DNA from: Lachnospiraceae bacterium
GTDB taxonomy: Bacteria > Bacillota > Clostridia > Lachnospirales > Lachnospiraceae
Assembly (NCBI GenBank): GCA_017448245.1
Contig: JAFSLV010000003.1
Location: forward strand, 1 to 35,721
DNA length: 35,721 nt
Direction of reading: 5' to 3'
This document shows, piece by piece, positions 7,566 through 30,369 of this stretch. The position numbers and the translations under genes are program-made. Under the pieces are notes generated by a model that was not told the origin of the DNA, did not search any database, and was given only the letters and a program-made list of their open reading frames with translations. Position 1 is the stretch's first letter; every line of letters begins with the position of its first letter.

Positions 7566-7577
7566 GATGTAAGGTAA

Positions 7578-9287: not shown

Positions 9288-9344
9288 GGCGCCCTCCTTG
9301 TGGAATACCCTGTTTTTTAGGGATATCGGTTGTCTCCCGGTTTC

Positions 9345-12590: not shown

Positions 12591-12642
12591 GTCTGCTCCT
12601 TTTCTTACGGGGCCGCGCAGCAGGGTGCGCGTCATCCGTCAT

Positions 12643-14754: not shown

Positions 14755-14776
14755 GGGGTCTGCTTGACAGAACCCC
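14755..14776. promoter_or_regulatory. Inverted repeat enclosing the -35 box of the iron operon
   Basis: GGGGT (14755-14759) pairs with ACCCC (14772-14776). CTG/CAG extends the stem with one bulged base, and TTGACA lies around the loop. It could be a repressor site over the promoter or a hairpin ending the regulator transcript. No T-run follows, which argues against a terminator on the plus strand. Confidence 0.45.
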
Positions 14777-14792
14777 CTCAGGAGACTAAAAT
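14764..14792 (+). promoter_or_regulatory. Near-consensus promoter of the 15-gene FTR1 operon
   Basis: TTGACA (14764-14769), a 17-base spacer and TAAAAT (14787-14792) form the best sigma-70-type promoter in the window. Transcription would begin near 14799, leaving a ~135-base leader that contains the repeat array before the ATG at 14934. Confidence 0.75.
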
Positions 14793-14800
14793 AGAGTATT

Positions 14801-14827
14801 GGTTAGTAACTGCTAACCGATTTTTTT
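14801..14827 (+). terminator. Hairpin plus T-run at the very 5' end of the operon leader (attenuator or operator)
   Basis: GGTTAG (14801-14806) and CTAACC (14813-14818) flank a 6-base loop, followed by GA and seven T residues. Structurally this is an intrinsic terminator, but it begins about two bases after the expected transcription start, which would give a transcript of under 30 bases. The dyad is also the first, related unit of the TTAG repeat array, so it may instead be a protein-binding operator. The GGTTAG/CTAACC half-sites recall DtxR/IdeR iron boxes, though the spacing differs. Confidence 0.5.
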
Positions 14828-14834
14828 GACCGGG

Positions 14835-14914
14835 AATTAGTCATGGCTAATTATAATTAGCCATGCTGATCCGAAATTAGAGGCGGCGATCCGGGGTTAG
14901 ACGGATCAATCTGC
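14835..14914 (+). repeat. Four 20-bp direct repeats in exact phase (iteron-like array)
   Basis: Units at 14835, 14855, 14875 and 14895 each begin RRTTAG. The second and third read AATTAG, ten bases ending CGAT/TGAT, then CCGR; the first and second share CATG followed by CT or GCT. TTAG falls at 14837, 14857, 14877 and 14897, spaced exactly 20 bases. A fifth related unit (GGTTAGTAACTGCTAACCGA) is at 14801-14820. The period is close to two helical turns, so proteins bound to each unit would lie on one DNA face. Confidence 0.7.
14842..14865. promoter_or_regulatory. Perfect 24-bp palindrome in the operon leader
   Basis: CATGGCTAATTA (14842-14853) is followed directly by its exact reverse complement TAATTAGCCATG (14854-14865). 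It straddles the first and second 20-bp repeats. A likely dimeric regulator site, or an RNA stem without a loop if transcribed. Placement before an iron-uptake operon suggests metal-responsive control, which is inference. Confidence 0.6.
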
Positions 14915-14933
14915 CGGGCAGAGGTGGCAGGAC

Positions 14934-15764
14934 ATGCGGTTGCGCACCGTTTTTGCGACAGTATTCATGGTGGCGTGTGTGCTTGCGGGCGCATGGTCGG
15001 CGGATCCCGCGGGACGGGCGGCGCCTTCGCATGCGGCACCCGGAGCGGATGTCCCGTTTTCCAAACGGCTCAAAAACCGGGAAGAGATCGTCATGACGAT
15101 CCGGCAGGGACTGAAAGACAGGGTCAGGGCATTTACGGTTTCTTTTTCCGACACAACGGACGTACTGTCCGTCCTCGGGGATGAGGTGGCCGGCTGGATG
15201 GAAGAGGCGCTCGCCGATACGGGCGCGGCAGATGAGGGAGATTATCTGCGCTACCAGTACGGCGGTTATACATACAATGCCCTGTATACGCAGACGGACG
15301 GACGCTACGACTACACGGTGCGGATCGAACCGGTGATGTATACGGATGCAGCGCAGGAAGAAGCCGTGGATGCGGAGGTCGAAAGGCTGATGCAGACCCT
15401 GCCCCTGACGCAGGGGATGTCCGATGAGGAAAAGGTGCGCGTCATTTACGACTATCTGTGTGCCAATGTCACCTATGACAAGGTGCATCGCAAAAAGGAA
15501 CACGATCATATCGACGCCACCGCCTATGCCGCACTCATCCGGCATACGGCATCGTGTCAGGGATACTGTACGGCGCTCTACCGGTTGCTGGAGACTGCGG
15601 GGATCGAGAGCAGGATCCGGACGACAAGCACGCAGACAGAGACGTTGCACGCCTTTGTCGAGGTCATGATCGACGGCACCTGGCTGGTACTCGATCCGAC
15701 CTATGACGCGGGACAGGAAACCTACCGGTACTTCCTGATACCGCGGGAGGAGAGAAATCATTGA
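14934..15764 (+). CDS. Secreted transglutaminase-like (papain-fold) protein
   Basis: The 276-residue product has an N-terminal hydrophobic signal segment (VFATVFMVACVLAGAW). From about residue 160 it has a transglutaminase-like core: VIYDYLCANVTYD, the nucleophile in ASCQGYCTAL, the histidine in LHAFVEV and the aspartate in VLDPTYD. All three catalytic residues are present. Such secreted domains in Firmicutes usually act as proteases or crosslinking enzymes; the substrate here is unknown. It is the first gene of the iron operon, and its stop overlaps the TTG start of the permease gene by four bases, so coupling is tight. A GAGGTGG site precedes the ATG. Cysteine 15 in the signal could raise the question of a lipoprotein, but no good lipobox is seen. 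Confidence 0.8.
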   Translation: MRLRTVFATVFMVACVLAGAWSADPAGRAAPSHAAPGADVPFSKRLKNREEIVMTIRQGLKDRVRAFTVSFSDTTDVLSVLGDEVAGWMEEALADTGAADEGDYLRYQYGGYTYNALYTQTDGRYDYTVRIEPVMYTDAAQEEAVDAEVERLMQTLPLTQGMSDEEKVRVIYDYLCANVTYDKVHRKKEHDHIDATAYAALIRHTASCQGYCTALYRLLETAGIESRIRTTSTQTETLHAFVEVMIDGTWLVLDPTYDAGQETYRYFLIPREERNH

Positions 15765-17182
15765 AAAAGATACGTTTGCTTTTTTCTTACCTGCTCATCT
15801 GCATGATGCTGCTTGCGGCATTCCCCGTTACAGTCCTTGCGACGGACGGAGAAGACGCGGTGTATCTGACATGGGACGAGTATAAGGAAGCGGAGGGCGT
15901 CACGTCCTGGAATTATAACGACATGGCGCAGGTGATCGCGCAGGTGGCGGAGCATGCGTACAATCTCTATGTCGCGGGACAGGGAGATGAGGCATACGAA
16001 TACGCAAAGGCCACTTACTGGGGATATTACGAGACGTCCGGTTTTGAAAGAAATACGATGAATTATATCTCCGGCAGCCGTGTGAGCCAGGTGGAATTCG
16101 CGTTTACGGCGCTGCGCAAGGCGGTCAAAAACGACAAGGGCGAAGCGGAAGTACGCGCGGCCGTCGACGAGCTCGTCGGATTTCTGGTCGAGGACGCGAT
16201 GATCCTGAGTCCTGAGGGACCGGTCTATATGGGCGTTGCCGGGGACACTGCGGATGCGGCGACCGGGGAAGCCTCCGCGGGAGAAGAGACCTCACAGGCA
16301 CCGGCGGCGGGTGCGGACACAACCGCACAGACCTCGGTCGGGAGCGGCATCGCCATCTTTCTCGGGAGCTTCGGCATCATCTTAAGAGAAGGTCTTGAGG
16401 CCATCCTGATCGTCGGTGCGATCATTGCCTATCTTGTCAAAAGCGGTGCACCGGAAAAAGTGCGTCCCGTGTATATCGGTGCCGCACTCGGCGTCGTCTG
16501 TTCCTTTATCATGGCGGCCATTCTCAACTATCTGCTCTCCCTGAGCGCGGAGTATCACATGTCGCAGGAAATCATCGAAGGCATCGCCGCACTCACGGCA
16601 GTGGTCGTTTTATTCTGGGTGAGCAACTGGATGGTCTCCAAGTCGGAGGCTGCAACGTGGACCGCCTATATCAGGGAAAAGGCGGGCGAGGGAGCCGCGG
16701 GCGGCAGTCTCTTCGCACTGGTCTTTACGGCATGGCTTGCGGTTTTCAGGGAGGGGGCCGAGGTGATCCTCTTCTATCAGCCGATGCTTGCGGAAAACAG
16801 ACCCGACATGGTGTGGGCCGGTTTTTTGACGGGCGTCGTCGCACTCGTCGCGGTATTCCTGCTGATCCGCTTTCTCAGTATCCGGCTGCCCGTCGGTCCG
16901 TTTTTCATGGCAACGAGCATCCTGATGGCCGCGATGTCGATTTCGTTTCTCGGTGCCGGCATCAAGGAGCTCATGGAGGGCGGCGTATTGGACAACATGC
17001 CCCTGGCATCCGCGTCTCCCGCGTGGCTGTCCTGGATTCCTTATAATGACACACTGGATGTACTCGGTATCTATCCGCTCGTCGGGACGGTGGTCCCGCA
17101 GCTGATCCTTCTTGCGATTACGATCGTCACCTTTGTGATGCATATCCGCAGGGGAAAGGCAAAAAAGGCGGCGGCGGAATGA
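15761..17182 (+). CDS. FTR1-family iron permease with extracytoplasmic N-terminal domain
   Basis: The 473-residue membrane protein starts at a TTG codon (15761) preceded by GGGAGGAG. It has a signal peptide (about 1-28), an extracytoplasmic helical domain (30-150), an Ala/Thr-rich linker (160-195), then seven or so membrane helices. The two iron-translocation motifs of the family are present: REGLE (209-213) and REGAE (330-334). FTR1 proteins move iron across the cytoplasmic membrane, in bacteria often with P19 (FetM/FetP in E. coli, Cj1658/Cj1659 in Campylobacter). The P19 gene is directly downstream, so this is a FetM-type permease rather than part of an EfeUOB set. Confidence 0.93.
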   Translation: MKKIRLLFSYLLICMMLLAAFPVTVLATDGEDAVYLTWDEYKEAEGVTSWNYNDMAQVIAQVAEHAYNLYVAGQGDEAYEYAKATYWGYYETSGFERNTMNYISGSRVSQVEFAFTALRKAVKNDKGEAEVRAAVDELVGFLVEDAMILSPEGPVYMGVAGDTADAATGEASAGEETSQAPAAGADTTAQTSVGSGIAIFLGSFGIILREGLEAILIVGAIIAYLVKSGAPEKVRPVYIGAALGVVCSFIMAAILNYLLSLSAEYHMSQEIIEGIAALTAVVVLFWVSNWMVSKSEAATWTAYIREKAGEGAAGGSLFALVFTAWLAVFREGAEVILFYQPMLAENRPDMVWAGFLTGVVALVAVFLLIRFLSIRLPVGPFFMATSILMAAMSISFLGAGIKELMEGGVLDNMPLASASPAWLSWIPYNDTLDVLGIYPLVGTVVPQLILLAITIVTFVMHIRRGKAKKAAAE

Positions 17183-17225
17183 TATAAGCAGCTTGCAACC
17201 ACAAGGTGAAAGGAGTGAGAAGTTT

Positions 17226-17870
17226 ATGAAAAAGAAGACATTGGCGTTGATGACGGTTCTCGCGATGGCAACGCTTGCCGCATGCTCTTCGCAGACGGCG
17301 GCACCCGCTGCACAAAGCAGCGCGCCTGCGTCATCGGAGACGAGCGCGCAGGTCGAGGCTTCGGTAGAGGTCGAGGAAGCGGGCGAGGAACCCGAGGTCG
17401 GTTTCCAGGAGTATCCGATCTGGGAAGACGAGGAAGTCGGGTTCTTAAATGTGTCGGGCGTATATTTCCAGCCCGTACCGATGTCCGGCGGCAACGAAAA
17501 CTACGAGCAGTACAATCTTCATTTTGAGGCGGACGTGTCCACGATGGAAAATGATCTGGGCTACGGCGTCGGAGAGTGGGTGCCTTACATGACGGTCGAT
17601 TTTGAACTGACCGGAAAGAATTCCGGAGAGGTCATCAGCGGAACGTTCATGCCGATGAACGCGGACGACGGCCCGCACTACGGCGCCAACATCGCAATGC
17701 CGACGGCGGATACGTATTCCGTAAAGATCACCTTTAACAGCCCCGGCGAAAACGGCTATCTCATCCATCTGGATGAAGAAACAGGCCCCGGCGGTGCGCT
17801 GGAGGATTATGAGTGGCCGCTCGTTCTCGAACTGGAAGATGTATGGGAGTATGAGCCGGTAGAGTGGTAA
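17226..17870 (+). CDS. P19/Tp34-family iron-binding lipoprotein
   Basis: The 214-residue product has a lipoprotein signal with LAAC (cysteine 20), a Ser/Ala/Glu-rich spacer, then a P19/Tp34 immunoglobulin-like domain. Family features seen are YNLHFEADV, GYGVGEWVPYMTVDFELTG, and FMPMNADDGPHYGANI, which supply the His/Met/acidic metal site. In Campylobacter and in FetP of E. coli this protein binds Fe (with Cu) outside the membrane and serves FTR1. It is placed 43 bases after the permease and 7 before the DUF2318 gene. An AAAGGAGTG site supports the start at 17226. Confidence 0.92.
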   Translation: MKKKTLALMTVLAMATLAACSSQTAAPAAQSSAPASSETSAQVEASVEVEEAGEEPEVGFQEYPIWEDEEVGFLNVSGVYFQPVPMSGGNENYEQYNLHFEADVSTMENDLGYGVGEWVPYMTVDFELTGKNSGEVISGTFMPMNADDGPHYGANIAMPTADTYSVKITFNSPGENGYLIHLDEETGPGGALEDYEWPLVLELEDVWEYEPVEW

Positions 17871-17877
17871 AGAGTTT

Positions 17878-19137
17878 GTGCTGAAGTATCTCATTGCAAC
17901 CATTGAAACGCTGTTTCCCGCGGCCGTCCTTACGGGGATGTTATACGGCTGCGCGAAGCAGCGTTTCGGGGAAAAAGAAAAAAGGTTTTTGCGGATTGCC
18001 ACGGCGGCGGGAATCGTAGCGGCGATCGTGATGGCATATCTCAAAAACAAGACACGGCTGATCCGCACCGACACCTGGAACGTGCGGATTTTCGGCGTTT
18101 CGATTGTCTGCTTTCTGGTGTTTCTGATTCTGGACAGTGAACCGTTCAGGAAAAAGAACCGGAGCATATGGCGGACGGCTGCCGCTTTTTTCTGCGCGGT
18201 GCTTGTTTTTCTGCAGTGGTTTTATGCCCTGCCGGACGTCCTTGCCAATCCTTATACAATCATCCTCGGCGGGGACGCATTGTTTTCCACGGGATTTTTG
18301 TACCGGATGATTGGTGTCGTAACGGGACTCGCACTGATGATTTTCACGTGTGCCGCGGTGCGTTTCGTTGCCGGCAGGGTACGTATATCTTACGCCGCCT
18401 TCCTGTGCAAGACGGCGTTTTTGCTGATAAGCATCCAGCAGTTTTTGAAGATCGTTTCGATTCTCAGGGCCCGCAGGATCCTCCCCAGGGGAACGCTCTT
18501 TGCGCTGACGTCTTTTTCCGCCAACCATGCGGATTATTACATCTACGGGCTGATTGTTCTGACGGCCGTACTGCCCCTGCTGCTGCTTGCCGTGAGCATG
18601 CGCATCAGTGAGCCGTACGAGAATCCGGCGCAGCTGAGAAAAATCAGGGCAGGGTTAAGGAGAAGACGCAGGTGGTCATTTGCCGTGATGCTGTGCTGTT
18701 TCACGGTGACGCTGTTTGTGACGGGGATCAAGGCCTATGCGAACCGGCCGGTGGAATTGTCCGCGATCGAGGACTGTATAAGGGACGGTGACGTGCTCAT
18801 CATACCCTTTTCGCAGGTTGAGGACGGACATCTGCACCGTTTTGCCTATACGACCCAGCAGGGCGCGGCGGTGCGTTTTATCATCATCAAAAAGCCCGGC
18901 TCCTCCTCGTACGGGATCGGCCTCGATGCCTGTGACATCTGCGGGGAAACCGGCTATTACGAGCGTGCGGGGCAGGTGGTATGCAACCGCTGCGATGTGG
19001 TGATGAATATCAATACGATCGGTTTTAAGGGCGGCTGCAATCCCAAGCTGATCGATTACAGGATAGAGGACGGACAGATCGTGATTCCGGTTGAGACACT
19101 CGACACGGAAGAAAACAACAGGCTTTTCGGAAAGTAG
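17878..19137 (+). CDS. DUF2318 membrane protein of the FTR1/P19 iron system
   Basis: The 419-residue protein begins at a GTG codon seven bases after the P19 stop, with only a weak AAAGAG site. Six to eight membrane helices span about residues 1-290. The C-terminal extracytoplasmic domain carries the DUF2318 cysteine pattern: DACDICGETGYY, VVCNRCDVVMN and GFKGGCNPK. Homologues sit beside FTR1 and P19 in Campylobacter (Cj1660) and other bacteria. The conserved cysteines suggest a metal or redox role, handing on or oxidising/reducing iron, but the activity is not established. Confidence 0.85.
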   Translation: MLKYLIATIETLFPAAVLTGMLYGCAKQRFGEKEKRFLRIATAAGIVAAIVMAYLKNKTRLIRTDTWNVRIFGVSIVCFLVFLILDSEPFRKKNRSIWRTAAAFFCAVLVFLQWFYALPDVLANPYTIILGGDALFSTGFLYRMIGVVTGLALMIFTCAAVRFVAGRVRISYAAFLCKTAFLLISIQQFLKIVSILRARRILPRGTLFALTSFSANHADYYIYGLIVLTAVLPLLLLAVSMRISEPYENPAQLRKIRAGLRRRRRWSFAVMLCCFTVTLFVTGIKAYANRPVELSAIEDCIRDGDVLIIPFSQVEDGHLHRFAYTTQQGAAVRFIIIKKPGSSSYGIGLDACDICGETGYYERAGQVVCNRCDVVMNINTIGFKGGCNPKLIDYRIEDGQIVIPVETLDTEENNRLFGK

Positions 19138-19144
19138 GAAGCGT

Positions 19145-20443
19145 ATGTTTTTGCGGCTTGTGCGGGGCGCCTTTTTGCGCCAGTGGAAGAAAATGCTGAT
19201 GATCGGTGTGACGGTGGCGCTCGGTGCGTCTCTTGCGACCGCGATGCTCAACGTCATGATGGATGTCGGCGACAAGGTCAACCAGGAACTCAAGGCATAC
19301 GGCGCCAATATCACGGTCGTACCCAAATCCACCGCGGTCATCAGTGACCTCTATGAGGTGGAGGGCGGGATCTCCGAGGGCGCCTATCTCAGGGAGGACG
19401 AGCTTGGCAGGATCAAAACCATCTTCTGGGCATTCAATATCGTTGATTTCGCGCCGCTCCTCGATACGGAGGTGACGCTTCCGGACGGGAGTACGGTCAC
19501 GGCCGTCGGCAGCTGGTACAATCATCATCTGTCTCTGCCGACGGGAGAGGAACTGGATACGGGACTGCCCGCCCTGCGAGCGTGGTGGACCGTCACGGAA
19601 GGCGCATGGATTGACGAACAGGCACGGTCCGGAGACGAGGCGCCCGCCTGCATGGTCGGCGCGCTTCTTGCGGAACGGATGTCGCTGCACGCGGGCGACA
19701 CGTTGACGATGAAGGGAACGCACGGAGAAGAGACCTGCGTCATCGCGGCTGTTTTCGATGCGGGAGCCGAAGAGGACGGGATGATCTTTTGTCCGCTGGA
19801 TGTGGCACAGCGTCTTTCGGGAACGGAGGGACTGTTGACCTCGATGGAGGTCAGTGCGCTCACGACGCCGGACAATGATCTGGCCAGAAAGGCGCAGCGG
19901 CAGGGGCCGGAATCGTTGTCGGTGGCCGATTACGAGACATGGTATTGCACGGCCTATGTCAGCAGCATCTGTTTCCAGATCCAGGAGGTGATCACGGACG
20001 CCGTGGCATCCCCGGTCCGCCAGGTTGCGGAATCGGAGGGAGCGATCATGGAAAAGACGGAACTGCTGATGATTCTGATCACGGTGCTTGCCCTCATCGG
20101 TGCCGCACTCGGCATCACCAATCTGGTGACCGCATCCGTCATGGAACGGTCGGGTGAGATCGGACTGATGAAAGCGATCGGTGCGACCAATGCGAGGATC
20201 AGCGCGCTCATCATCGCGGAGGTGCTGATGACCGGCATTCTGGGCGGTGCTGCCGGATACCTTGCGGGCTTCGGATTTGCGCAGATCATCGGACATACCG
20301 TTTTTTCTTCCGGCGTCGAGATGAAGCCGATGGTGATTCCGATCGTCGCGGTGCTGGTCGTGATCATGACGCTGGCAGGTTCTTTGCCCGCGATCCGTTT
20401 TTTGCTGCAGCTTCGACCCACGGAGGTGCTGCACGGCAGATGA
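19145..20443 (+). CDS. FtsX/MacB-type ABC permease 1 of the FTR1 system
   Basis: The 432-residue product has an N-terminal membrane helix (KMLMIGVTVALGASLATAML), a ~230-residue extracytoplasmic domain, and three C-terminal helices with the FtsX core (MERSGEIGLMKAIGATNARI, then AEVLMTGILGGAAGYLAGF). MacB-type permeases of this shape transmit mechanical force across the membrane rather than forming a channel. Paired FtsX permeases plus an ATPase regularly follow P19/FTR1/DUF2318 genes. The start at 19145 has a GGAAG site; the longer frame from 19091 would overlap the upstream gene by 47 bases. The role within iron uptake is not known. Confidence 0.88.
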   Translation: MFLRLVRGAFLRQWKKMLMIGVTVALGASLATAMLNVMMDVGDKVNQELKAYGANITVVPKSTAVISDLYEVEGGISEGAYLREDELGRIKTIFWAFNIVDFAPLLDTEVTLPDGSTVTAVGSWYNHHLSLPTGEELDTGLPALRAWWTVTEGAWIDEQARSGDEAPACMVGALLAERMSLHAGDTLTMKGTHGEETCVIAAVFDAGAEEDGMIFCPLDVAQRLSGTEGLLTSMEVSALTTPDNDLARKAQRQGPESLSVADYETWYCTAYVSSICFQIQEVITDAVASPVRQVAESEGAIMEKTELLMILITVLALIGAALGITNLVTASVMERSGEIGLMKAIGATNARISALIIAEVLMTGILGGAAGYLAGFGFAQIIGHTVFSSGVEMKPMVIPIVAVLVVIMTLAGSLPAIRFLLQLRPTEVLHGR

Positions 20444-20456
20444 GGGGTAAGAGATC

Positions 20457-21617
20457 ATGACGAAGCGGAGATTCTTTTTCAAAATGATCGCGGCATCGCT
20501 CATGCGCAGACGCAGCAGGATACTCGTTGCGCTGCTTGCGATTGTCGTGGGAGCCACGGTGCTGTCGGGGCTCGTTACGATCTATGTGGACGTGCCCAGG
20601 CAGATGGGTGCGGAGTTCCGTAATTACGGCGCCAATATGATCTTTTTGCCTGCGGGGGGCGATCAGCCCTACACGACACAGACGGTCTCAGAGGCGCTTG
20701 CCATGATCGGGGAGGAGCGCCTGGTGGGCGCCGCGCCCTACCGCTATGAGATCATGCAGATCCACGAGCAGCCGATCGAGACGGCGGGGACGGACATGGC
20801 GGGGGCCATGCGCACGTCGCCCTACTGGTATGTGAACGGCAGCTGGCCCGATGAAAGCGGCGAGATGCTGGCGGGCAGGGAAATCGCGGAGCTTTTGGCA
20901 TTGTCTGTCGGCGATACCGTGACGATGGTATATAAGAGCGAGGAGGATACGGCCGATGCGCGCGGTGTCGTGGAGTCGCCGGAGATGGAGATGACGGTTA
21001 CGGGCATCATGGAGAGCGGCGGCAGCGAAGAAGGCTATGTGTATATCTCCATGGAGGACATGGTTGCGCTCTGCGGACAGGAGGGGAGACTCGACGTGAC
21101 GGAGCTGTCGGTGTCGGGGGAGCGGGATGCACTCATCCGGCTGTCGGAAGAGATCGCCGCGGCACAGCCCGGTATCGCGCCGCGTCTGGTCAAACGCGTG
21201 ACGGAATCCGAAGCGACGGTGCTGACCAAGCTGCAGGCACTGGTGCTTCTGGTGACATCGGTCGTTCTCATCCTGACCATGATCTGTGTCGCGACCACGA
21301 TGACGGCGGTCGTTACGGAGAGACGCCGGGAGATCGGCCTGAGAAAAGCGCTCGGCGCTTCCGACAAGGGAGTCGCCGCGGAATTCATGGGAGAGGGGTT
21401 TATACTCGGTGCGGCCGGAGGACTGATCGGGGTCGTACTCGGGTTTTTGTTTGCACAGGCCGTGAGCATGCAGGTCTTTTCCGCGTCGATCACGTTTCAG
21501 CTGTGGCTGGTGCCGTTGACGGTTTTCGCCTCGGTGCTGGTGACGGGACTCGCTTCGTTCTGGCCGGTGAAGAGCGCATCAAAGGTGGATGCCGCACTGG
21601 TGCTCAAGGGAGAGTAA
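20457..21617 (+). CDS. FtsX/MacB-type ABC permease 2 of the FTR1 system
   Basis: The 386-residue protein has the same plan as its neighbour: an N-terminal helix (RILVALLAIVVGATVLSGLV), a large external domain (about 45-260), and three C-terminal helices with TERRREIGLRKALGASDKGV. NYGANMIFLPAG in this protein matches AYGANITVVPKS in permease 1, so the pair arose by duplication and probably forms a heterodimer. It lies 13 bases downstream of permease 1 and 45 bases before the ATPase gene. Confidence 0.88.
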   Translation: MTKRRFFFKMIAASLMRRRSRILVALLAIVVGATVLSGLVTIYVDVPRQMGAEFRNYGANMIFLPAGGDQPYTTQTVSEALAMIGEERLVGAAPYRYEIMQIHEQPIETAGTDMAGAMRTSPYWYVNGSWPDESGEMLAGREIAELLALSVGDTVTMVYKSEEDTADARGVVESPEMEMTVTGIMESGGSEEGYVYISMEDMVALCGQEGRLDVTELSVSGERDALIRLSEEIAAAQPGIAPRLVKRVTESEATVLTKLQALVLLVTSVVLILTMICVATTMTAVVTERRREIGLRKALGASDKGVAAEFMGEGFILGAAGGLIGVVLGFLFAQAVSMQVFSASITFQLWLVPLTVFASVLVTGLASFWPVKSASKVDAALVLKGE

Positions 21618-21632
21618 GGGAAAAAAGAAGCG

Positions 21633-21641
21633 TGATATAAT
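21633..21641 (+). promoter_or_regulatory. Possible internal extended -10 promoter
   Basis: TGATATAAT is a full TGnTATAAT extended -10 element in the 45-base gap before the ATPase gene, 22 bases from its ATG. No -35 match is seen. It may give extra transcription of the ATPase and the redox genes downstream. Confidence 0.4.
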
Positions 21642-21662
21642 GAACTTTACGGTGAAAAAACA

Positions 21663-22361
21663 ATGAGTCTTCTGGAATTGAAAAACGTCAGCAAAATCTA
21701 CGGTACCCTTCGTGCGCTCGACCATGTGAACATGCGGGTCGAAGCGGGCGAGTGGGTATCAATCATGGGTCCTTCCGGCAGCGGAAAGAGCACCATGATG
21801 AATATCATCGGCTGCCTGGACAAGGCGTCGGAGGGAGAGGTCCTTCTGGACGGCACGTTGATCTGTGCGGAAACGGCCGACCGGCTGACGGAGATCCGCA
21901 GGGACAAGATCGGTCTGATCTTTCAGCAGTTTCATCTGATCCAGTATCTGACTGCCGTCGAAAATGTCATGGTCGCGCAGTATTATCATTCGATGCCGGA
22001 CGAAAAGGAGGCACTGGAAGCGCTGGCACGCGTGGGACTTAAGGACCGCGCGCATCATCTGCCCTCCCAGATGTCGGGTGGTGAGCAGCAGCGCGTGTGT
22101 GTGGCGCGTGCGCTCATCAACTATCCGAAGATCCTCCTGGCGGACGAGCCGACCGGCAATCTCGATGAGGCCAATGAGCGGATCGTCGTCGAGCTGTTTA
22201 AGAAGCTGCACGAGGAGGGGACGACGCTGATCATCGTGACGCATGATCCGGAGGTTGCCGAGGTCGCACAAAGGACGGTCGTGCTCCGGGACGGAAGGCT
22301 CGTCAAAGAAACGGTCAATGAGAATTTCACGGGCGTGATGAAGCACAGGAAGGTGGAGTAG
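21663..22361 (+). CDS. MacB/LolD-type ABC ATPase of the FTR1 system
   Basis: The 232-residue ATPase has Walker [10 protein letters not shown] (about 37-45), a Q-loop (IFQQFHLIQYLTAVENV), signature MSGGEQQRV, and Walker B ILLADEPTGNLD. Its length and motifs fit the MacB/LolD/FtsE group that pairs with FtsX-fold permeases, here the two genes just upstream. It would energise them from the cytoplasm. The ribosome site is weak (GGTGAAAA). Confidence 0.93.
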   Translation: MSLLELKNVSKIYGTLRALDHVNMRVEAGEWVSIMGPSGSGKSTMMNIIGCLDKASEGEVLLDGTLICAETADRLTEIRRDKIGLIFQQFHLIQYLTAVENVMVAQYYHSMPDEKEALEALARVGLKDRAHHLPSQMSGGEQQRVCVARALINYPKILLADEPTGNLDEANERIVVELFKKLHEEGTTLIIVTHDPEVAEVAQRTVVLRDGRLVKETVNENFTGVMKHRKVE

Positions 22362-22364
22362 CAC

Positions 22365-22808
22365 ATGAAGAGGATGCGTGTTTTATTATGCGCGGTTTTA
22401 CTGATGACGGTATCCGTTGCCTGCGGCGGCGGGCCGGCATCTTACCGGGACGGGACCTACACCGCGCGTTCGAGTGTCTATGAAAACGATGACGGCACCG
22501 ATGACGGCAACGGTTACGGAGAGGTCACGATCACGATCGTGGGCGGAAAGATCACGGCGTGCACGTTTGAGACCTTTGAGCCTGACGGTACGCGTAAGGA
22601 TGAAGACTACGGCAAGGTGAACGGCGAAATCGCCAACCAGGACTTTTTCAACAAGGCACAAAAGGCGACCTCGGCCTGTGAGGAGTATGCAAGAATGCTG
22701 CTCGAAAGCGGCACCTTAAACGGTGTGGATACGATTTCCGGTGCGACGATCAATTATAACGCGTTTTTGGAGGCGACGGAAGAAGCGCTCCGGCAGGCGG
22801 CTCAGTAA
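22365..22808 (+). CDS. FMN-binding domain lipoprotein
   Basis: The 147-residue protein has a lipoprotein signal (lipobox VSVAC, cysteine 20) and an FMN-binding domain: a repeat-like YRDGTYTARS start, GEVTITIVGGKITACTFE, and DTISGATINYNAF near the end. In this family FMN is attached covalently to the threonine of SGAT (here about Thr128) by ApbE; no apbE gene is in the window. It would be a surface one- or two-electron carrier. It starts three bases after the ATPase stop, placing a redox carrier directly in the iron operon. Confidence 0.9.
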   Translation: MKRMRVLLCAVLLMTVSVACGGGPASYRDGTYTARSSVYENDDGTDDGNGYGEVTITIVGGKITACTFETFEPDGTRKDEDYGKVNGEIANQDFFNKAQKATSACEEYARMLLESGTLNGVDTISGATINYNAFLEATEEALRQAAQ

Positions 22809-22819
22809 ACGGACAGGGC

Positions 22820-23347
22820 ATGTATTCCATGAGGGATCGGTCGGAACGAAAGCAATACTTTCTGATACACACGACGATGGTTTTGCTCGTGCTGTTTTTC
22901 ATCCTCGGCGTACCCTTTTTCCGCTCCGGCTTTTTTTCTTCCGGAAGAGGGGAAACGGACACGGTCTCCGGAGCAAGCGTGATATACGATACCCCTTCCG
23001 GAGAATACGTGGTGCTCATCAACCGTCCGCTGCATGAGGAGAGCGGCACGCTGGAAACGTGGGAGACTTTTTTTTCGGGCGGAGAGATCGGCGTTGTCTT
23101 TGAAGATCTGCACTGTCTGACGATCCGCGGGGATGCCGCGGGGATCGACGCTGCCATAAGCTTTCAGTCAAGGCTTCCGGAAAACCAGATGCGCGTGCGC
23201 ACGGAGGAAGGCGTGCTGATCGCATCCAAGGAGACGTTCGGGCTGTATGATATAATTGTCATGAGCTCGGAGGCCTATGAGGGCTTTGGGATGTCCGGGC
23301 ATACCAACGGGGAGATGACGACGGTAGTCACAGTGTCGGGTCCATGA
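22820..23347 (+). CDS. Unknown single-pass membrane protein
   Basis: I do not recognise this 175-residue protein. It has one N-terminal membrane helix (TTMVLLVLFFILGVPFF) and an external domain of ~140 residues with DTVSGASVIYD, FEDLHCLTIRG and DIIVMSSEAYEG. DTVSGAS looks like the FMN-attachment motif DTISGAT of the preceding gene, but with Ser for Thr and in a different place, so kinship is uncertain. It sits between the FMN-binding lipoprotein and the membrane subunit; its stop overlaps the next start (ATGA). Co-translation suggests it belongs to the membrane redox complex. Confidence 0.7.
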   Translation: MYSMRDRSERKQYFLIHTTMVLLVLFFILGVPFFRSGFFSSGRGETDTVSGASVIYDTPSGEYVVLINRPLHEESGTLETWETFFSGGEIGVVFEDLHCLTIRGDAAGIDAAISFQSRLPENQMRVRTEEGVLIASKETFGLYDIIVMSSEAYEGFGMSGHTNGEMTTVVTVSGP

Positions 23348-23895
23348 GAAAAATCAATGCGGTGATCAGCAGCTCCATACTGGTGCTATTTGCCATACAC
23401 GGCGTGATCGGCGGCTTTCAGCTGGCGGGTATCTATCCGGGCGGCGTACGTGTGCTCAAGATGCTTGCACGATTGATGCTGACGCTGATTCTTGTACACG
23501 GAGCGATCGGCATCCGGCTCACGATCGATACGCTGTATGCCATGAAGAAGGCGGGCGTTTCCTATTGGAAGGACAACCGGCTCTTCTGGGCAAGGCGGAT
23601 ATCCGGCTTTGCCGTGTTTTTCCTGATCCTGTTTCACGTGATATTGTTTCTGGGAACGGAGGCGGACGGTGCGTACCGTCTGCGGCTGTTTGCGATGCCG
23701 CAGCTCCTGCTGCATCTGCTGCTTGTCGCGGTGACGGCGCTGCACGTGATCGCCAATGTCCGTCCGGTCCTGATCGCATGCGGCATCCGGTCGTTAAAGG
23801 AGATTGCCGCGGAACTGATTGCGGTCTTATGCGTGATTCTGGTGTTTGCGGGCGCGATGTTTGTTCTGTACTACTTCCGGTGGATGGCGGTATGA
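23344..23895 (+). CDS. Histidine-containing membrane subunit, probable cytochrome b-like anchor
   Basis: The 183-residue protein has about five membrane helices. Histidines lie within or at the ends of helices (AIHGVIGG, LVHGAIGI, LFHVILF, LLHLLL, ALHVIANV), as expected for a b-type haem anchor such as those of succinate dehydrogenase/fumarate reductase. It overlaps both neighbours by four bases (ATGA) and directly precedes the FrdA-like and FrdB-like genes, which supports the anchor role. Sequence alone does not prove haem binding. Confidence 0.72.
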   Translation: MRKINAVISSSILVLFAIHGVIGGFQLAGIYPGGVRVLKMLARLMLTLILVHGAIGIRLTIDTLYAMKKAGVSYWKDNRLFWARRISGFAVFFLILFHVILFLGTEADGAYRLRLFAMPQLLLHLLLVAVTALHVIANVRPVLIACGIRSLKEIAAELIAVLCVILVFAGAMFVLYYFRWMAV

Positions 23896-25511
23896 ACTCA
23901 ACTGGGAATGATGCACCCATCCTCATCATCGGCGCGGGGCTTGCGGGACTGAGCGCGGCGCTTACGGTCGCAAGGGCAAAAAGGCGCTGCCGTCTCATCA
24001 GCGTCGCCCCTCCGGAGCGCGCACAGTCGGTGCTCGCCGAGGGCGGAACCAACGCGGTGCTCGACACGATGGGCGACCATGACACGGTGGAGGAGCATAT
24101 CGCGGACACGATGCGCGGCGGATGCTTTCTTGCGGATGAGAAGGCCGTCCGCAGACTCTGTGAGACGGCGCCGCTCATCATCAGGGATCTGGAGGCGCTG
24201 GGCGTTCCCTTCAACCGCAATGCGGACGGCACGATTGCGCAACGGTATTTCGGCGGTCAGAAAAAAAGACGCACGGCATTTGCAGGAGCCATGACCGGCA
24301 AGATGCTGATGAGCGCACTGATCGATGCGGTCAGAAAGTATGAGGCGGACGACCTCGTGGAGCGGTATGATCATCATGCTTTTTGCGGACTCCTCCATAC
24401 GGAGAGAACCCCGGATGAGGAGCAGGCGGCACAGGGGACATCCGGCGTGTATGTACAGGATCTGTATACGGAGGAGATGCTCTCCTTTGAGGGGCCGGTT
24501 GTTTTGTGCAGCGGGGGACTGAACGGCATGTTTCCGGGGCACACGACGGGAACGGCATACAATACGGGCGAGGTGACCGCGATTGCTTTTACGCAGGGCA
24601 TACGTCTTGCCAATCTCGAGATGATCCAGTACCATCCGACGACCGTCGCCATCCCCGGAAAGCGGCTGCTGGTGACGGAAGCGGCCCGCGGAGAGGGCGG
24701 CAGACTGTTTGTGGAGAAAAAGGGAGCAGGCGGGGAGATACTTACCGCACCCGAAGGCCGTTATTATTTTATGGAAGAGAGGTATCCGGCGCTCGGCAAT
24801 CTGATGCCGCGCGATGTAGTGAGCAGGGAGATCGACAGTATTCTTGCGGATGATCACTACGGAGGACGGGTCTTTCTGGATATGACGGGCATCCCCGCGG
24901 ATGTCTGGGATGAAAGACTCGCGGAGCTGCGGGAGGAAATCCTGCACTATCTGGGACCGGATCCGGCCAAAGTGCCGGTGCCGGTTGCCCCGGGGATACA
25001 CTATTTTATGGGAGGAATCGACGCGGATGCGGAGCATCGCACGAGTCTGGCCGGCGTCTACGCGGCCGGTGAGTGCTGTGCGCTCTACCACGGCGCCAAC
25101 CGCCTCGGCGGCAACTCCACCATGGGGGCGATGGCCGGCGGCAGGGTGGCCGCGGAAAGCGCGATGCGCTACGGATATGACATAAGGGACGGGAGGCCGG
25201 GAGCGCTTGCCATCGACCCCTTACGGCAGGCCGCAAACCGTCTTCCTGAACCGGATGAAGAACTCGGGGATATTCTCCGCGAAGGACTCGGCATCGTGCG
25301 CAACGAAGCGTCGTTACAGCGCGCCTTGCGGCGGGTGACAGAGCTGGAACGCACACGGGGAAACAGTACGCCGCGCATTCTGCTCGCAAAAGCGATGCTG
25401 AAAAGTGCCATGCAGAGAAAAGAAAGCCGCGGCGCGCATTATCGCGGCGATTATCCCGAAACACTGGATGCCTGCCGGCGAAAGACGGTGATCTATGCAA
25501 CTGATCTTTGA
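23892..25511 (+). CDS. Fumarate reductase/succinate dehydrogenase-like flavoprotein subunit
   Basis: The 539-residue cytoplasmic flavoprotein begins with the FAD dinucleotide motif LIIGAGLAGLSAA (11-23). Dicarboxylate active-site strings of the SdhA/FrdA/NadB family are intact: QYHPTTV, TEAARGEGGRLF, DVVSREID, GIHYFMGG and ANRLGGNST. At the place where Sdh/Frd carry the FAD-linking histidine, this protein has Gln45 (RAQSVLAEGG), so FAD is probably not covalent. The start overlaps the membrane-subunit stop (ATGA); a longer frame from 23565 runs through that gene and is rejected. NadB (L-aspartate oxidase) is an alternative, but the adjoining iron-sulfur and membrane subunits favour a respiratory-type complex. 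Confidence 0.87.
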   Translation: MNSTGNDAPILIIGAGLAGLSAALTVARAKRRCRLISVAPPERAQSVLAEGGTNAVLDTMGDHDTVEEHIADTMRGGCFLADEKAVRRLCETAPLIIRDLEALGVPFNRNADGTIAQRYFGGQKKRRTAFAGAMTGKMLMSALIDAVRKYEADDLVERYDHHAFCGLLHTERTPDEEQAAQGTSGVYVQDLYTEEMLSFEGPVVLCSGGLNGMFPGHTTGTAYNTGEVTAIAFTQGIRLANLEMIQYHPTTVAIPGKRLLVTEAARGEGGRLFVEKKGAGGEILTAPEGRYYFMEERYPALGNLMPRDVVSREIDSILADDHYGGRVFLDMTGIPADVWDERLAELREEILHYLGPDPAKVPVPVAPGIHYFMGGIDADAEHRTSLAGVYAAGECCALYHGANRLGGNSTMGAMAGGRVAAESAMRYGYDIRDGRPGALAIDPLRQAANRLPEPDEELGDILREGLGIVRNEASLQRALRRVTELERTRGNSTPRILLAKAMLKSAMQRKESRGAHYRGDYPETLDACRRKTVIYATDL

Positions 25512-26175
25512 TATTCTGCGGACAGAAAAGAATACAGGAAGACAGTACCGCCAGGAGATTGAGCTGGATACGGCCGTCCTCGGTGCGGATGAAAAAAAAG
25601 CCACCGTCGCGACCGCACTGCGGTATCTCGATAAAAGCAGTGACACGCGCGTTGCATGGGATTGCGGATGTCTCCAGAGGAGGTGCGGCACATGTGCGAT
25701 GGTCATCAACAAAAGACCGGCGCTTGCCTGTGATGCAAGGCTTGCCGCGTGTGCCAAAAAGGGAAGGATCAGGATCGAACCGCTCGGGAAGTTTCCCGTG
25801 ATTGAGGATCTCAGGGTCGACCGCACCATCCTGCAGGAGCATCTGAAATCGTACCGGATGTGGCAGGACGGAACACGTGCGGACAGTGCGGTGCAACACC
25901 GGGACGTCGTATACGAAGCGTCCCGCTGCCTCCAGTGCGGACTCTGTCTGGAGGTCTGTCCCAACTATTATACAGGCGGGCGGTTTTTCGGTACGGCGAC
26001 AGCCGTTCCCGCCGCACGTCTTTTTGGCCTTGGCGGTGACCGCAGGAAAGAATACGGCCGCCATGTATACGCGGGCTGCGGCAAGTCCCTTTCCTGCCGC
26101 AACATCTGTCCGGCGGGAATCGATGTGGATGCGCTTTTGGCAAGGAATAACAGACAATTGTGGGGGAGACAATGA
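25495..26175 (+). CDS. Fumarate reductase/succinate dehydrogenase-like iron-sulfur subunit
   Basis: The 226-residue protein has an N-terminal [2Fe-2S] domain (C59, C64, C67, C79 with the C-x4-C-x2-C-x11-C spacing) and a C-terminal ferredoxin-like domain with CLQCGLCLEVCP and CGKSLSCRNICP, which bind the other two clusters. This is the FrdB/SdhB plan at about normal length. Its start lies 17 bases inside the flavoprotein gene and its stop overlaps the DUF4418 start, so the subunits are co-translated. It would pass electrons between the flavoprotein and the membrane subunit. Confidence 0.9.
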   Translation: MQLIFDILRTEKNTGRQYRQEIELDTAVLGADEKKATVATALRYLDKSSDTRVAWDCGCLQRRCGTCAMVINKRPALACDARLAACAKKGRIRIEPLGKFPVIEDLRVDRTILQEHLKSYRMWQDGTRADSAVQHRDVVYEASRCLQCGLCLEVCPNYYTGGRFFGTATAVPAARLFGLGGDRRKEYGRHVYAGCGKSLSCRNICPAGIDVDALLARNNRQLWGRQ

Positions 26176-26618
26176 AAAAGGAACGACGGACTTTTATCAT
26201 GGATGTGGCGACAGCGTTATTGTGTGTGATCCTGACGGCGGGCGTCAGAATCGTGTTCCATGCCTGTGACGCAAAAGAAGACGGCACGTGGATGACCTGC
26301 CACTGGGCGGAGATGACGGTATTTGCGGCGGGGATAGCGATGACGCTGCAGGCGCTGATCCTGTGTCTGGTGCGCGGTAAGGGATGCCACGGCATCCGGG
26401 CGGGACTGTGTCTGGCCATTGCCGTGCAGAGTATTCTGTGCGCACTCGTTCCCGGCGCGGTCATCCGTCTGTGCATGATGGAGTCGATGCGATGCCATAC
26501 CGTTATGCGACCGGCGGTGCTTCTGACGGGGTTATTGCTTGCCGTGTTGTCCGTGATCTGCGGACTGAGACACCGTGCGATGTGCGGAAGGGGACACCTA
26601 TCGTCCGATGCGCAATAA
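26172..26618 (+). CDS. DUF4418 small membrane protein
   Basis: The 148-residue protein has about four membrane helices and the cysteine/histidine signature of DUF4418: FHACDA, MTCHWAEM, LCMMESMRCHTVMRP. The start at 26172 overlaps the previous stop (ATGA) and follows GGGGGAG; a GTG twelve bases upstream is less likely. As far as I recall, DUF4418 genes often precede FtsX permease/ATPase pairs, as here. The function is unknown; paired Cys and His residues near membrane surfaces hint at metal or haem contact. Confidence 0.8.
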   Translation: MKKERRTFIMDVATALLCVILTAGVRIVFHACDAKEDGTWMTCHWAEMTVFAAGIAMTLQALILCLVRGKGCHGIRAGLCLAIAVQSILCALVPGAVIRLCMMESMRCHTVMRPAVLLTGLLLAVLSVICGLRHRAMCGRGHLSSDAQ

Positions 26619-26630
26619 AGGAACCGGGAG

Positions 26631-27845
26631 ATGATCAAAAAAATCAGGGCCAGTCTGCCGTATAAGAATATCGTCAACCGTCCCGCCAGGAGTATCGCAC
26701 TGGTCGTTCTGTGTGCGATTCTCACCTGTGCTTTTTTCTACGGAACGATGATGGTGCAGTCCCTGAACAGGGGACTGGCATCGCTGCGCAACCGGATGGG
26801 GGCGGACATCATGGTGGTGCCGTTTGAGGCGACGACCAAGTCCGATATCGATCTGGAAAACATCATACTGCTCGGCAATATGGGATACTTTTACATGGAT
26901 ACGGATACCGCGGACAAAATCGCCGCGCGGGAGGGAGTTTCCGTGGCCAGTACGCAGTATTATCTTTCGACGGTTTCTTCCGGATGCTGTTCCGTGCCGG
27001 TGCAGATCATCGGCTTTGATCCGGAAACGGACTTTACCGTCACTCCGTGGATCAAAAAAAGCTACGGGAGAGATCTGCGTGAAATGGAAGTCGTGGTCGG
27101 CCACAAGCTCAACGCGTTTGTCGGAGATACGCTGACGTTTTACGGACAAAACGTGACGGTTGCCGCCAAGCTCGAAGAGACCGGAACGGATCTGGACACG
27201 GCCGTGTATTGCAACCAGCTCACGATCAGACGCCTTACGCAGGCTTCGATCGATCTCCGCCTCAACCACGAGCGGATCGCGGATCCGGAACGTGTCGTCT
27301 CCTGTGTCCTCGTCAATGTCAGGGAGGGATACAGCGTGGATGAGGTATGCAATGATATCAATATCCATGTACGCGGGGTCAAAGCCTTCCGGACGGCGGG
27401 ACTGATGGAAGGCATCGCCTCCTCCCTCAGGGGCGCCGCACGCGTGATTGCCATCATGGCGGTGGCGGTCTGGCTTGTGTGTCTGTCCGTGCTGGTTATT
27501 GCTTTTTCCATGAGTGTGAGGGAAAGAAAAAAGGAATTTGCACTGCTCAGGGCCATCGGCGCTTCACAAAAAAAAGTATCACGCATCATCCTGCAGGAAA
27601 GTGCGCTCATTTCCTTTTTCGGCGCACTGCCGGGTGTGGGGACGGGTGTGCTCATCCTGTTTTTGTTTGCGGGACTCGTTGAAGAGATGCTGTCGCTTCC
27701 CTTTCTGCTGCCGCCGGTGTGGCAGATCCTCGGTATGGCGCTTCTGGCCGTATGCGCCGGTGTGATGTGTTCCGTCTTTGCCGGCGTTCGCACAGCGAGG
27801 AAGACCGCCGGTGCGGAGGCGGGCGAGTCACTTCGTGAGCTGTGA
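26631..27845 (+). CDS. FtsX/MacB-type ABC permease 3
   Basis: The 404-residue permease has an N-terminal helix (SIALVVLCAILTCAFFYG), an external domain of ~210 residues including MGADIMVVPFEA, and three C-terminal helices with RERKKEFALLRAIGASQKKVSR. It is the sole permease beside its ATPase, so it likely works as a homodimer, unlike the pair at 19145-21617. A GGAA/GGGAG site precedes the ATG. It forms a module with the DUF4418 protein and the following ATPase. Confidence 0.88.
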   Translation: MIKKIRASLPYKNIVNRPARSIALVVLCAILTCAFFYGTMMVQSLNRGLASLRNRMGADIMVVPFEATTKSDIDLENIILLGNMGYFYMDTDTADKIAAREGVSVASTQYYLSTVSSGCCSVPVQIIGFDPETDFTVTPWIKKSYGRDLREMEVVVGHKLNAFVGDTLTFYGQNVTVAAKLEETGTDLDTAVYCNQLTIRRLTQASIDLRLNHERIADPERVVSCVLVNVREGYSVDEVCNDINIHVRGVKAFRTAGLMEGIASSLRGAARVIAIMAVAVWLVCLSVLVIAFSMSVRERKKEFALLRAIGASQKKVSRIILQESALISFFGALPGVGTGVLILFLFAGLVEEMLSLPFLLPPVWQILGMALLAVCAGVMCSVFAGVRTARKTAGAEAGESLREL

Positions 27846-27891
27846 GCGGTCTGAAAAAGACAGACGGTAACATACGACGGACGGAGAAGAG

Positions 27892-28686
27892 ATGTCTGTG
27901 ACAGAAAAAAAGGACAATATACCGGTGATTCATGCCGCGGATCTGCGCAAGGAGTATCTGCGGCAGGGGAAGGGGACCAATATTTTTACCGCGGTCGACC
28001 GGACGGAACTGTCTGTGTATGCCGGAGAACTCGTTGTGCTGAAAGGACGCTCCGGCAGCGGGAAAACAACGCTTTTAAACATGCTTGCGGGACTCCTTAC
28101 GCCGACGGACGGCAAGGTGCTTTTTTATGAAGACGCCGTTTTGCATTGCGGAAGCGATCCGCGTAACGAAAACGGCATCGATCTCTATGCGCTCGGGGAC
28201 GAAGAGAGATCTCTTTTGCGCGGCAGATATTTCGGATATATCCCGCAGGGGGCGGGGGCGGTCGGATCGCTCACGGTGACGGAGAATGTGCTGATCCCGT
28301 GGAGACTATCGGGAGAGGCCGGGCATAAGTCCAAAGATCCTGTCTGCCCGGAAGCCGCGGGAGCGGAAAAAGAGATCATGGCTTATGCGGCAGAGCTTCT
28401 GGAGATTCTCGGCATCGGACATCTTTCGGGGGAAATGCCCCGCTCGCTTTCCGGCGGCGAGCTGCGCAGGCTTGCGATCGCAAGGGCGCTTGTGACAAGA
28501 CCCGCTGTCATCTTTGCGGATGAACCGACGGGCGATCTGGACGACCAAAGCGCGCGGGAGGTTTTTAGTCTGCTGCGTAAAAAAGCCGATGAAGGGGCGG
28601 CGGTGCTGTTGGTCACCCATGAAAACGGGGCGGAAGCCTGTGCGGACCGCTGCATCACCAGACAGCATCCGGTGAGCGGTGCGTGA
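27892..28686 (+). CDS. MacB-type ABC ATPase paired with permease 3
   Basis: The 264-residue ATPase has Walker A GRSGSGKTT, signature LSGGELRRL and Walker B VIFADEPTGDLD. An insertion of ~20 residues between the Walker A and Q-loop regions (YEDAVLHCGSDPRNENGID) and another after the Q-loop make it longer than the first ATPase of the operon. It is the last gene of the long operon; a hairpin terminator starts 43 bases after its stop. The transported or mechanically handled substrate is unknown. Confidence 0.9.
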   Translation: MSVTEKKDNIPVIHAADLRKEYLRQGKGTNIFTAVDRTELSVYAGELVVLKGRSGSGKTTLLNMLAGLLTPTDGKVLFYEDAVLHCGSDPRNENGIDLYALGDEERSLLRGRYFGYIPQGAGAVGSLTVTENVLIPWRLSGEAGHKSKDPVCPEAAGAEKEIMAYAAELLEILGIGHLSGEMPRSLSGGELRRLAIARALVTRPAVIFADEPTGDLDDQSAREVFSLLRKKADEGAAVLLVTHENGAEACADRCITRQHPVSGA

Positions 28687-28698
28687 CAGGATGCATAC

Positions 28699-28727
28699 TT
28701 TACATCATCACTTTAGTGTGCTAATAT
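28699..28727 (+). promoter_or_regulatory. Promoter of the amino acid transporter operon
   Basis: TTTACA (28699-28704), a 17-base spacer and TAATAT (28722-28727) make a good promoter. A small dyad TTAG-TGTG-CTAA (28713-28724) overlaps the -10 box. The transcript would start near 28734, inside the 5' arm of the terminator hairpin that follows. Confidence 0.65.
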
Positions 28728-28728
28728 A

Positions 28729-28766
28729 GTAAAGCCGCATGGAGCGTGCGGACTTTACTTATTTTT
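28729..28766 (+). terminator. Intrinsic terminator ending the FTR1 operon
   Basis: GTAAAGCCGCA (28729-28739) pairs with TGCGG-A-CTTTAC (47-58 of the same hundred) with one bulge and a 7-base loop, followed by TTATTTTT. RNA reading through from the operon can form the full stem. RNA started at the overlapping promoter would lack the outer arm and should escape. Confidence 0.7.
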
Positions 28767-28784
28767 ATGAGAGGGAGAAAAAAG

Positions 28785-29690: not shown

Positions 29691-29704
29691 GCAGTTAGCA
29701 AAAA

Positions 29705-30352: not shown

Positions 30353-30369
30353 GCGGGTACGGACAAGCC

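Follow-up and report, generated by a model that had tools for sequence, protein, structure and literature searches.

Among the closest described relatives of the operon reported here are iron-related gene clusters of two bacteria. In Bifidobacterium breve, bfeUO-sifABCDE encodes an FTR1 permease, BfeO as a second iron protein, an eight-transmembrane protein, two FtsX permeases, an ATPase and a flavin mononucleotide (FMN)-binding protein; iron chelation induces the cluster and makes it necessary (PMC5449479). The first six genes of Campylobacter jejuni fetMP-fetABCDEF encode FTR1, P19, a DUF2318 protein, two permeases and an ATPase, and this cluster has thioredoxins rather than an FMN_bind protein (PMC10783030, PMC6083913). 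That Firmicutes P19 loci carry an FMN-binding protein in place of the thioredoxin is already in print (PMC6083913, PMC8238504), and 260 P19/FTR1 clusters with a predicted flavinylated protein, mostly from Gram-positives, have been reported (PMC8238504). Here, we describe a 15-gene operon in a 35,721-nucleotide stretch of DNA from a Lachnospiraceae bacterium (contig JAFSLV010000003.1; hereafter, the window). Its genes 2–8 resemble the B. breve cluster, the first six of these stand in the C. jejuni order, and the operon further encodes an anchored protein (gene 9), a cytochrome b and the fumarate reductase-like subunits FrdA and FrdB. As far as the available excerpts of these papers go, the B. 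breve system consists of two transcripts and has no cytochrome b, FrdAB or gene 9, and the C. jejuni system has no FrdAB.

We find that the operon is a P19 module plus a four-gene insert, gene 9–cytochrome b–FrdA–FrdB. We consider it moderately probable, leaving aside the direction of electron flow, that the insert is a quinone-independent, flavin-linked transmembrane wire serving iron uptake. In the open-license PMC literature searched, we met neither FrdAB in a P19 operon nor the operator described below.

RESULTS

A 15-gene operon

The operon had been proposed in an earlier sequence-only reading of the window, and the open reading frame (ORF) listing confirms its gene layout: 15 plus-strand genes spanning 14934–28686, gaps of at most 46 bases (the widest from 27845 to 27892) and five start/stop overlaps (15761, 23344, 23892, 25495 and 26172). 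These gaps and overlaps take starts at 17226, 19145, 23892 and 26172, as chosen here. Pfam bears out the families that had been named (FTR1, P19, DUF2318, FtsX/ABC, FMN_bind, FrdA, FrdB and DUF4418), with matches to Sdh_cyt, to FAD_binding_2 and Succ_DH_flav_C in FrdA, and to Fer2_3 and Fer4 in FrdB. It also places two FtsX permeases, an ATPase and then an FMN_bind protein beside FTR1 and P19, as in P19/FTR1 modules, whose ATPase is followed by either a thioredoxin or an FMN_bind protein. The transglutaminase-core gene 1, the flavinylation-type motif of gene 9, the conserved operator and the missing quinone genes are additions to the sequence-only reading. The features, in order, are:

14764..14792, plus strand: sigma-70-like promoter, TTGACA-17-TAAAAT, 11 of 12 bases matching
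14802..14817, no strand assigned: operator-like palindrome, copy 1, GTTAGTAACTGCTAAC, upstream of the operon
14836..14851, no strand assigned: operator-like palindrome, copy 2, ATTAGTCATGGCTAAT, upstream of the operon
14934..15764, plus strand: gene 1, secreted transglutaminase-core protein (PF01841, E 3e-13)
15761..17182, plus strand: gene 2, FTR1 iron permease (PF03239, E 2e-26)
17226..17870, plus strand: gene 3, P19-type iron-binding lipoprotein (PF10634, E 1e-41; ORF from 17193, start chosen)
17878..19137, plus strand: gene 4, FtrD-like/DUF2318 membrane protein (PF10080, E 3e-29)
19145..20443, plus strand: gene 5, FtsX/MacB-type permease (PF02687, PF12704; ORF from 19091, start chosen)
20457..21617, plus strand: gene 6, FtsX/MacB-type permease (PF02687)
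21663..22361, plus strand: gene 7, ATP-binding cassette (ABC) ATPase, MacB/LolD-like (PF00005)
22365..22808, plus strand: gene 8, FMN_bind lipoprotein (PF04205, E 6e-7)
22820..23347, plus strand: gene 9, anchored protein of 175 amino acids (helix 3–35, arm, alpha/beta domain 62–173)
23344..23895, plus strand: gene 10, five-helix cytochrome b (PF01127; His 19, 52, 98 and 134)
23892..25511, plus strand: gene 11, FrdA-like flavoprotein (PF00890, E 3e-75)
25495..26175, plus strand: gene 12, FrdB-like iron-sulfur protein (PF13085; 11 conserved Cys)
26172..26618, plus strand: gene 13, DUF4418 four-helix membrane protein (PF14387, E 3e-19; ORF from 26160, start chosen)
26631..27845, plus strand: gene 14, FtsX/MacB-type permease of the second ABC module (PF02687)
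27892..28686, plus strand: gene 15, ABC ATPase of the second module (PF00005)
28723..28763, plus strand: terminator-like hairpin preceding the next transcription unit

The operon is conserved among relatives

Genome contigs were scanned with five FrdA sequences and the best 80 of 300 relatives were kept, a design whose counts describe the nearest relatives and cannot yield the fraction of P19 loci with FrdAB; the loci were annotated by the window's own proteins. For 50 FrdA-centered loci, 8.5 kb or more of sequence is available upstream; FTR1 and P19 are present in 42 of these and the whole set from FTR1 to FrdB (genes 2–10 and 12) in 40, and FTR1 is missing from eight. Most conserved loci come from ruminant guts, and Ruminococcus albus 8 is included. 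Where there was room on both sides (37 loci), DUF4418, FtsX and ABC genes are found together in 23, and FtsX and ABC genes in 30. No FTR1 occurs within the 5 to 7.4 kb available upstream at L051, L054 and L058, and three further genomes carry the FrdAB half without FTR1. The linkage between FTR1 and FrdA that the sequence-only reading expected thus holds across relatives, and the contrary outcome it had named, an FrdAB half never near FTR1, is not what these loci contain. Because the same gene order recurs in some forty genomes, the operon is more than chance, and the union of iron module, FMN-binding lipoprotein and FrdAB/membrane complex in one conserved operon is supported.

This type of FrdA is rare. 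At E 1e-60 it occurs in 5 of 120 genomes of the family, three of them with at least 50% identity (the window's genome, G072 and G025), and it is found in 9 of 61 genomes of the window's genus, again with three at or above that identity (the window's genome, G177 and G140). The G177 locus is rearranged, with the second FtsX and ABC genes before FrdA and no DUF4418 found, and its contig ends before FTR1. In an FrdA tree built by a quick method with a midpoint root, where the window sits on a long branch, the operon forms belong to a set of 82 with 99% support that excludes the three stand-alone kin with a gene 9-like neighbor. Other stand-alone forms branch within this set, and fitting the operon label to the tree takes 15 changes, of which 11 are forced.

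A P19 module with a four-gene insert

P19 was present in 7 of 391 genomes of a class-wide draw, one being the window's, and the only one of the seven loci with FrdAB is the window itself. The other six, five from one family and three from one genus, have the order FTR1-P19-FtrD-FtsX-FtsX-ABC-FMN_bind with DUF4418, FtsX and ABC genes close by (6/6); gene 9, the cytochrome and FrdAB are absent from the 20 kb read at each, and this FrdA is absent from these six genomes at E 1e-60. G072 has a P19 module (L029) and a gene 9-like/cytochrome/FrdA/FrdB cluster (L015) on separate contigs, and L029 contains no FrdAB and has DUF4418 and the second FtsX/ABC. Since the P19 module stands without the insert in both the class sample and G072, the window operon is a P19 module plus gene 9–cytochrome b–FrdA–FrdB. 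The sequence-only reading was correct that an FMN_bind protein replaces the thioredoxins, a swap already in print. Its placement of DUF4418 and the second FtsX/ABC on the FrdAB side was rejected, since these genes accompany P19 modules that have no FrdAB. In G072, the gene immediately before the DUF6921-cytochrome-FrdAB cluster encodes a heavy-metal P-type ATPase (L015, 7825–10806), and farther upstream lies an ArsR-type regulator.

Proteins of the insert

For gene 9, no Pfam family was matched at E 0.05, the DUF6921 model (PF21914) included; the protein is a distant relative, at less than 20% identity, of DUF6921 and its structure PDB 3noh, which is RUMGNA_00914 and is titled putative peptide binding protein. 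The name RUMGNA_00914 is absent among the matches listed from open-license PMC papers, and further matches exist. A low-confidence arm of gene 9 carries the motif DTVSGAS (47–53). In this alignment column, canonical D-x-x-[ST]-G-A-[ST] is found in 13 of 63 homologues and D/E-x4-A-[ST] in 62 of 63. We read this stretch as a probable ApbE-type flavin site carried by a flexible arm. The FMN_bind lipoprotein has DTISGAT, which fits the canonical motif and is present in 55 of 55 homologues, and judging from these motifs both proteins are probably flavinylated. Of the 35 operon-carrying genomes surveyed, 29 encode ApbE, among them the window genome (C21).

The gene 10 cytochrome resembles the subunits of diheme quinol:fumarate reductase (QFR) and succinate dehydrogenase (SDH), with five helices and four histidines that, compared with the heme ligands of known diheme complex II, are candidate ligands; it is probably diheme. 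A PDB sequence search gave weak SDH matches only (best E 0.00065). FrdB has 11 cluster cysteines for three clusters in 76 of 76 sequences.

FrdA retains the dicarboxylate-site residues H248, T250, E263, R307, H370 and R404, whose roles we take to be those in E. coli FrdA, and the fumarate site is kept in 81 of 81 sequences. The conserved histidine that marks covalent flavin adenine dinucleotide (FAD) in complex II is lacking: Q45 aligns with the histidine of 6lum, presumably the FAD-linking residue, and is Gln in all 81. Soluble fumarate reductases and L-aspartate oxidase hold FAD non-covalently, and mutant work on E. coli FrdA is said to make succinate oxidation unlikely without this histidine. 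Pfam finds no separate NADH- or ferredoxin-binding domain in FrdA. An L-aspartate oxidase was rejected: among NCBIfam models, FrdA scores highest against one for succinate dehydrogenase (403 bits, where the cut-off is 855), L-aspartate oxidase models score 307 bits or less, and F120 (81/81) occupies a position at which NadB has Glu.

Genes of the iron module

FTR1 has two REXXE motifs (R209-E213 and R330-E334). In the P19-type protein, H99, E101, M142, M144 and H151 are conserved and are metal-ligand candidates in roles that we assume from other P19 proteins; BfeO is presumably also of the P19 kind. The five conserved cysteines of gene 4 follow CxxC-x13-CxxC-x14-C, within the published DUF2318 motif CxxC-x13-CxxC-x(14,15)-C (PMC6083913). 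Matches of gene 7 to NCBIfam models are below cut-off. DUF4418 contains a doubled pattern, C32-x8-M41-x-C43-H44 and C101-x4-M106-x-C108-H109, that looks like a metal site; apart from the last His, 95% or more of 34 sequences retain it. In gene 1, C208, H239 and D254 are retained by 95% or more of 40 sequences; the gene is part of the operon in many species, where it is usually flanked by FrdB and DUF4418.

Most carriers lack quinone genes

The quinone survey took in the window genome and 34 other carriers of the operon, 35 genomes in all, many of which are metagenome-assembled genomes (MAGs) of unstated completeness. MenD exceeds its cut-off in none, PF02621 is found in one (34.8 bits) and UbiA exceeds its cut-off in four, one of the four being the MenA-like enzyme of the window genome. 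Because the gaps extend to 31 of 35 genomes for UbiA and 35 of 35 for MenD, they are too widespread for MAG incompleteness. In the window genome (99% complete), the MenA-like enzyme, below NCBIfam cut-offs, lies beside a polyprenyl synthase (L117; G000:C37:60000-79999), with ResB and a diheme cytochrome c peroxidase-type protein approximately 4 to 5 kb off.

A conserved operator-like palindrome

The core RTTAG-N6-CTAAY of the two palindromes occurs in 36 of 45 operon upstream regions (dinucleotide-shuffle mean 0.08), with two or more sites in 24, and the reversed and complemented cores in 2 and 0. When the spacer was varied, 6 alone stood out, with a minor peak at 10 (10/45). DtxR (TTAGG-N9-CCTAA) and Fur-like patterns were rejected as the operator, being found in 0 and 2 of 46 regions, a count that includes L029, which the operator count excludes and which is possibly among the 55 FMN_bind sequences.

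The window genome has 10 such sites, two in this promoter, and none for the reversed pattern. Of seven other places with GTTAG-N6-CTAAC, one precedes rnfC, one is flanked by an ABC exporter and a bile-acid-type symporter, and nothing iron-related was recognized at five. The rnfC site is approximately 119 bases before the gene (L131 1501; G000:C30:10910), and Rnf may share control. Eight of 19 such places in R. albus 8 were read. Three of these sites adjoin a flavodoxin gene, an FMN_bind gene and a 2Fe-2S thioredoxin-like gene, respectively; a fourth precedes two paired genes, one of which encodes an AMP-binding (nonribosomal peptide synthetase-like) protein; a fifth falls at the end of a phosphopantetheinyl transferase gene that is followed by an ABC exporter; and at the other three, nothing was recognized. 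Since these sites adjoin flavodoxin and siderophore-like genes, the operator suggests control by iron limitation. A looser site precedes R. albus 8 apbE. We rejected apbE as a general member of the regulon: sites occur in 4 of 29 regions from 28 genomes (shuffle mean 0.1; G184, which has apbE fragments, is left out), one of the four is nearly 600 bases away, and none is in the window genome.

The promoter that the sequence-only reading called strong is present and is the best of 10 such sites in the region; their number shows no excess over chance (expectation 8.1, sd 2.9), leaving "strong" unsupported. The hairpin terminator of that reading does fold (−18.1 kcal/mol, z −4.2). Immediately downstream of the promoter, the first operator copy and the T run that follows it (14798–14821) can likewise form a terminator-like hairpin (z −4.25). 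An Rfam scan of the window found nothing at gathering scores.

Neighboring genes

On the minus strand, 4983–13983 holds a selenium/molybdenum hydroxylase cluster with a molybdopterin hydroxylase that has 2Fe-2S domains and with YgfK (TIGR03315) and SsnA, both over cut-off. Downstream, 28746–31988 encodes an amino-acid-type ABC transporter (binding protein, permease and ATPase), followed by a gene resembling the histidine racemase CntK, below cut-off.

DISCUSSION

How might a complex II-like insert serve an iron importer? We propose that the P19/FTR1 importer, the FtrD-like protein, two FtsX/ABC modules, DUF4418 and the FMN_bind lipoprotein make up one iron-limitation operon of Clostridia-like bacteria, and that the insert would assemble into a four-gene wire of cytosolic FrdAB, a diheme membrane cytochrome b and membrane-anchored gene 9 with its ApbE-type flavin site. 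Electrons would traverse the membrane by way of the FrdB clusters and a pair of hemes, without quinone, and exchange with FMN on gene 9 and next with FMN on the FMN_bind lipoprotein, beside iron held by P19, FTR1 and FtrD. The sequences themselves establish which genes are present and in what order, their conserved cofactor residues, the operator and the lack of quinone genes; that genes 8 and 9 are flavinylated, that the proteins form a complex, the path of the electrons, the role of iron as their partner and the response to iron are inferred from these. In which direction would they move? Opposite to the sequence-only reading, we lean slightly toward inward flow, in which Fe(II) would be oxidized during FTR1 transit and the electrons passed to cytosolic fumarate. 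By the biochemistry of relatives, Gln at the FAD site and an untouched fumarate site favor fumarate reduction. A further reason for this lean is that yeast Ftr1p transports Fe(III) generated in situ by oxidation (PMC11966278).

Since the window genome has a MenA-like enzyme and a polyprenyl synthase, it may prenylate scavenged naphthoate. The inward direction has two difficulties: ferric reduction is what published proposals favor, and Fe(II) is not readily oxidized by bound FMN.

In an oxidative form of the wire, Fe(II) would be oxidized as it passes P19 and FTR1, with electrons flowing inward to fumarate, so that the wire would be an oxygen-free substitute for FTR1's ferroxidase partner. We hold this only tentatively. 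The yeast precedent, the two REXXE motifs of FTR1, the Gln and fumarate site of FrdA and the lack of a copper oxidase among Pfam matches of the operon proteins are in its favor. However, bound FMN usually has too low a potential for Fe(II) unless hard ligands hold Fe(III), and P19 modules exist without this FrdAB. A somewhat bolder conjecture, which we offer with more doubt, is that gene 9–cytochrome b–FrdAB is a quinone-independent complex II linking cytosolic fumarate with covalent FMN outside, that fumarate replaces oxygen for Fe(II) oxidation in FTR1 transport, and that the DUF6921 proteins beside stand-alone cytochrome-FrdAB genes are flavin subunits of similar complexes.

The sequence-only reading ran the wire outward: FrdAB and cytochrome b would carry cytosolic electrons to flavins at the surface, and these would reduce Fe(III) for import. 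This is the direction of the published proposals, but FrdA has no domain for NADH or ferredoxin and keeps its dicarboxylate residues, and with the invariant Gln, succinate oxidation is an improbable source of electrons; we regard the outward scheme as unlikely. Less probable still is fumarate respiration from extracytosolic flavins, reduced for example by Rnf, that is merely co-transcribed with the iron genes. Stand-alone gene 9-like/cytochrome/FrdAB clusters and the operator site before rnfC fit this idea, whereas the strongly conserved linkage and order with P19/FTR1, and the placing of an iron-rich complex within a putative iron-limitation regulon, do not. That the wire reduces or oxidizes the FtrD-like CxxC cysteines instead of iron seems very improbable, since flavin proteins seldom act on such cysteines and no thioredoxin or DsbD-like family is among Pfam matches of the operon proteins, even though the five gene 4 cysteines are conserved and Gram-negative P19 loci have thioredoxin-like proteins instead (PMC10783030).

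If the proposed wire serves iron uptake, the operon would offer a route for powering or redox control of FTR1-type import without oxygen and copper oxidases. It would also suggest a role for a domain with one solved structure (3noh, DUF6921) and a complex II that works without quinone.

Compared with diheme complex II, such as Wolinella QFR and Chloroflexus SDH, the window operon likewise combines FrdA and FrdB with a cytochrome of five helices and four histidines; it differs in having Gln for the FAD-linking His, in that most carriers lack quinone genes and in the added anchored subunit with a flavin motif. P19/FMN clusters presumably use electron-transfer proteins encoded elsewhere (PMC8238504); the insert of the window operon would supply such a route across the membrane in some forty species genomes. 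The P19/FTR1/DUF2318/FtsX/FMN_bind module is the known part of this operon, and gene 9–cytochrome b–FrdA–FrdB is the addition to it.

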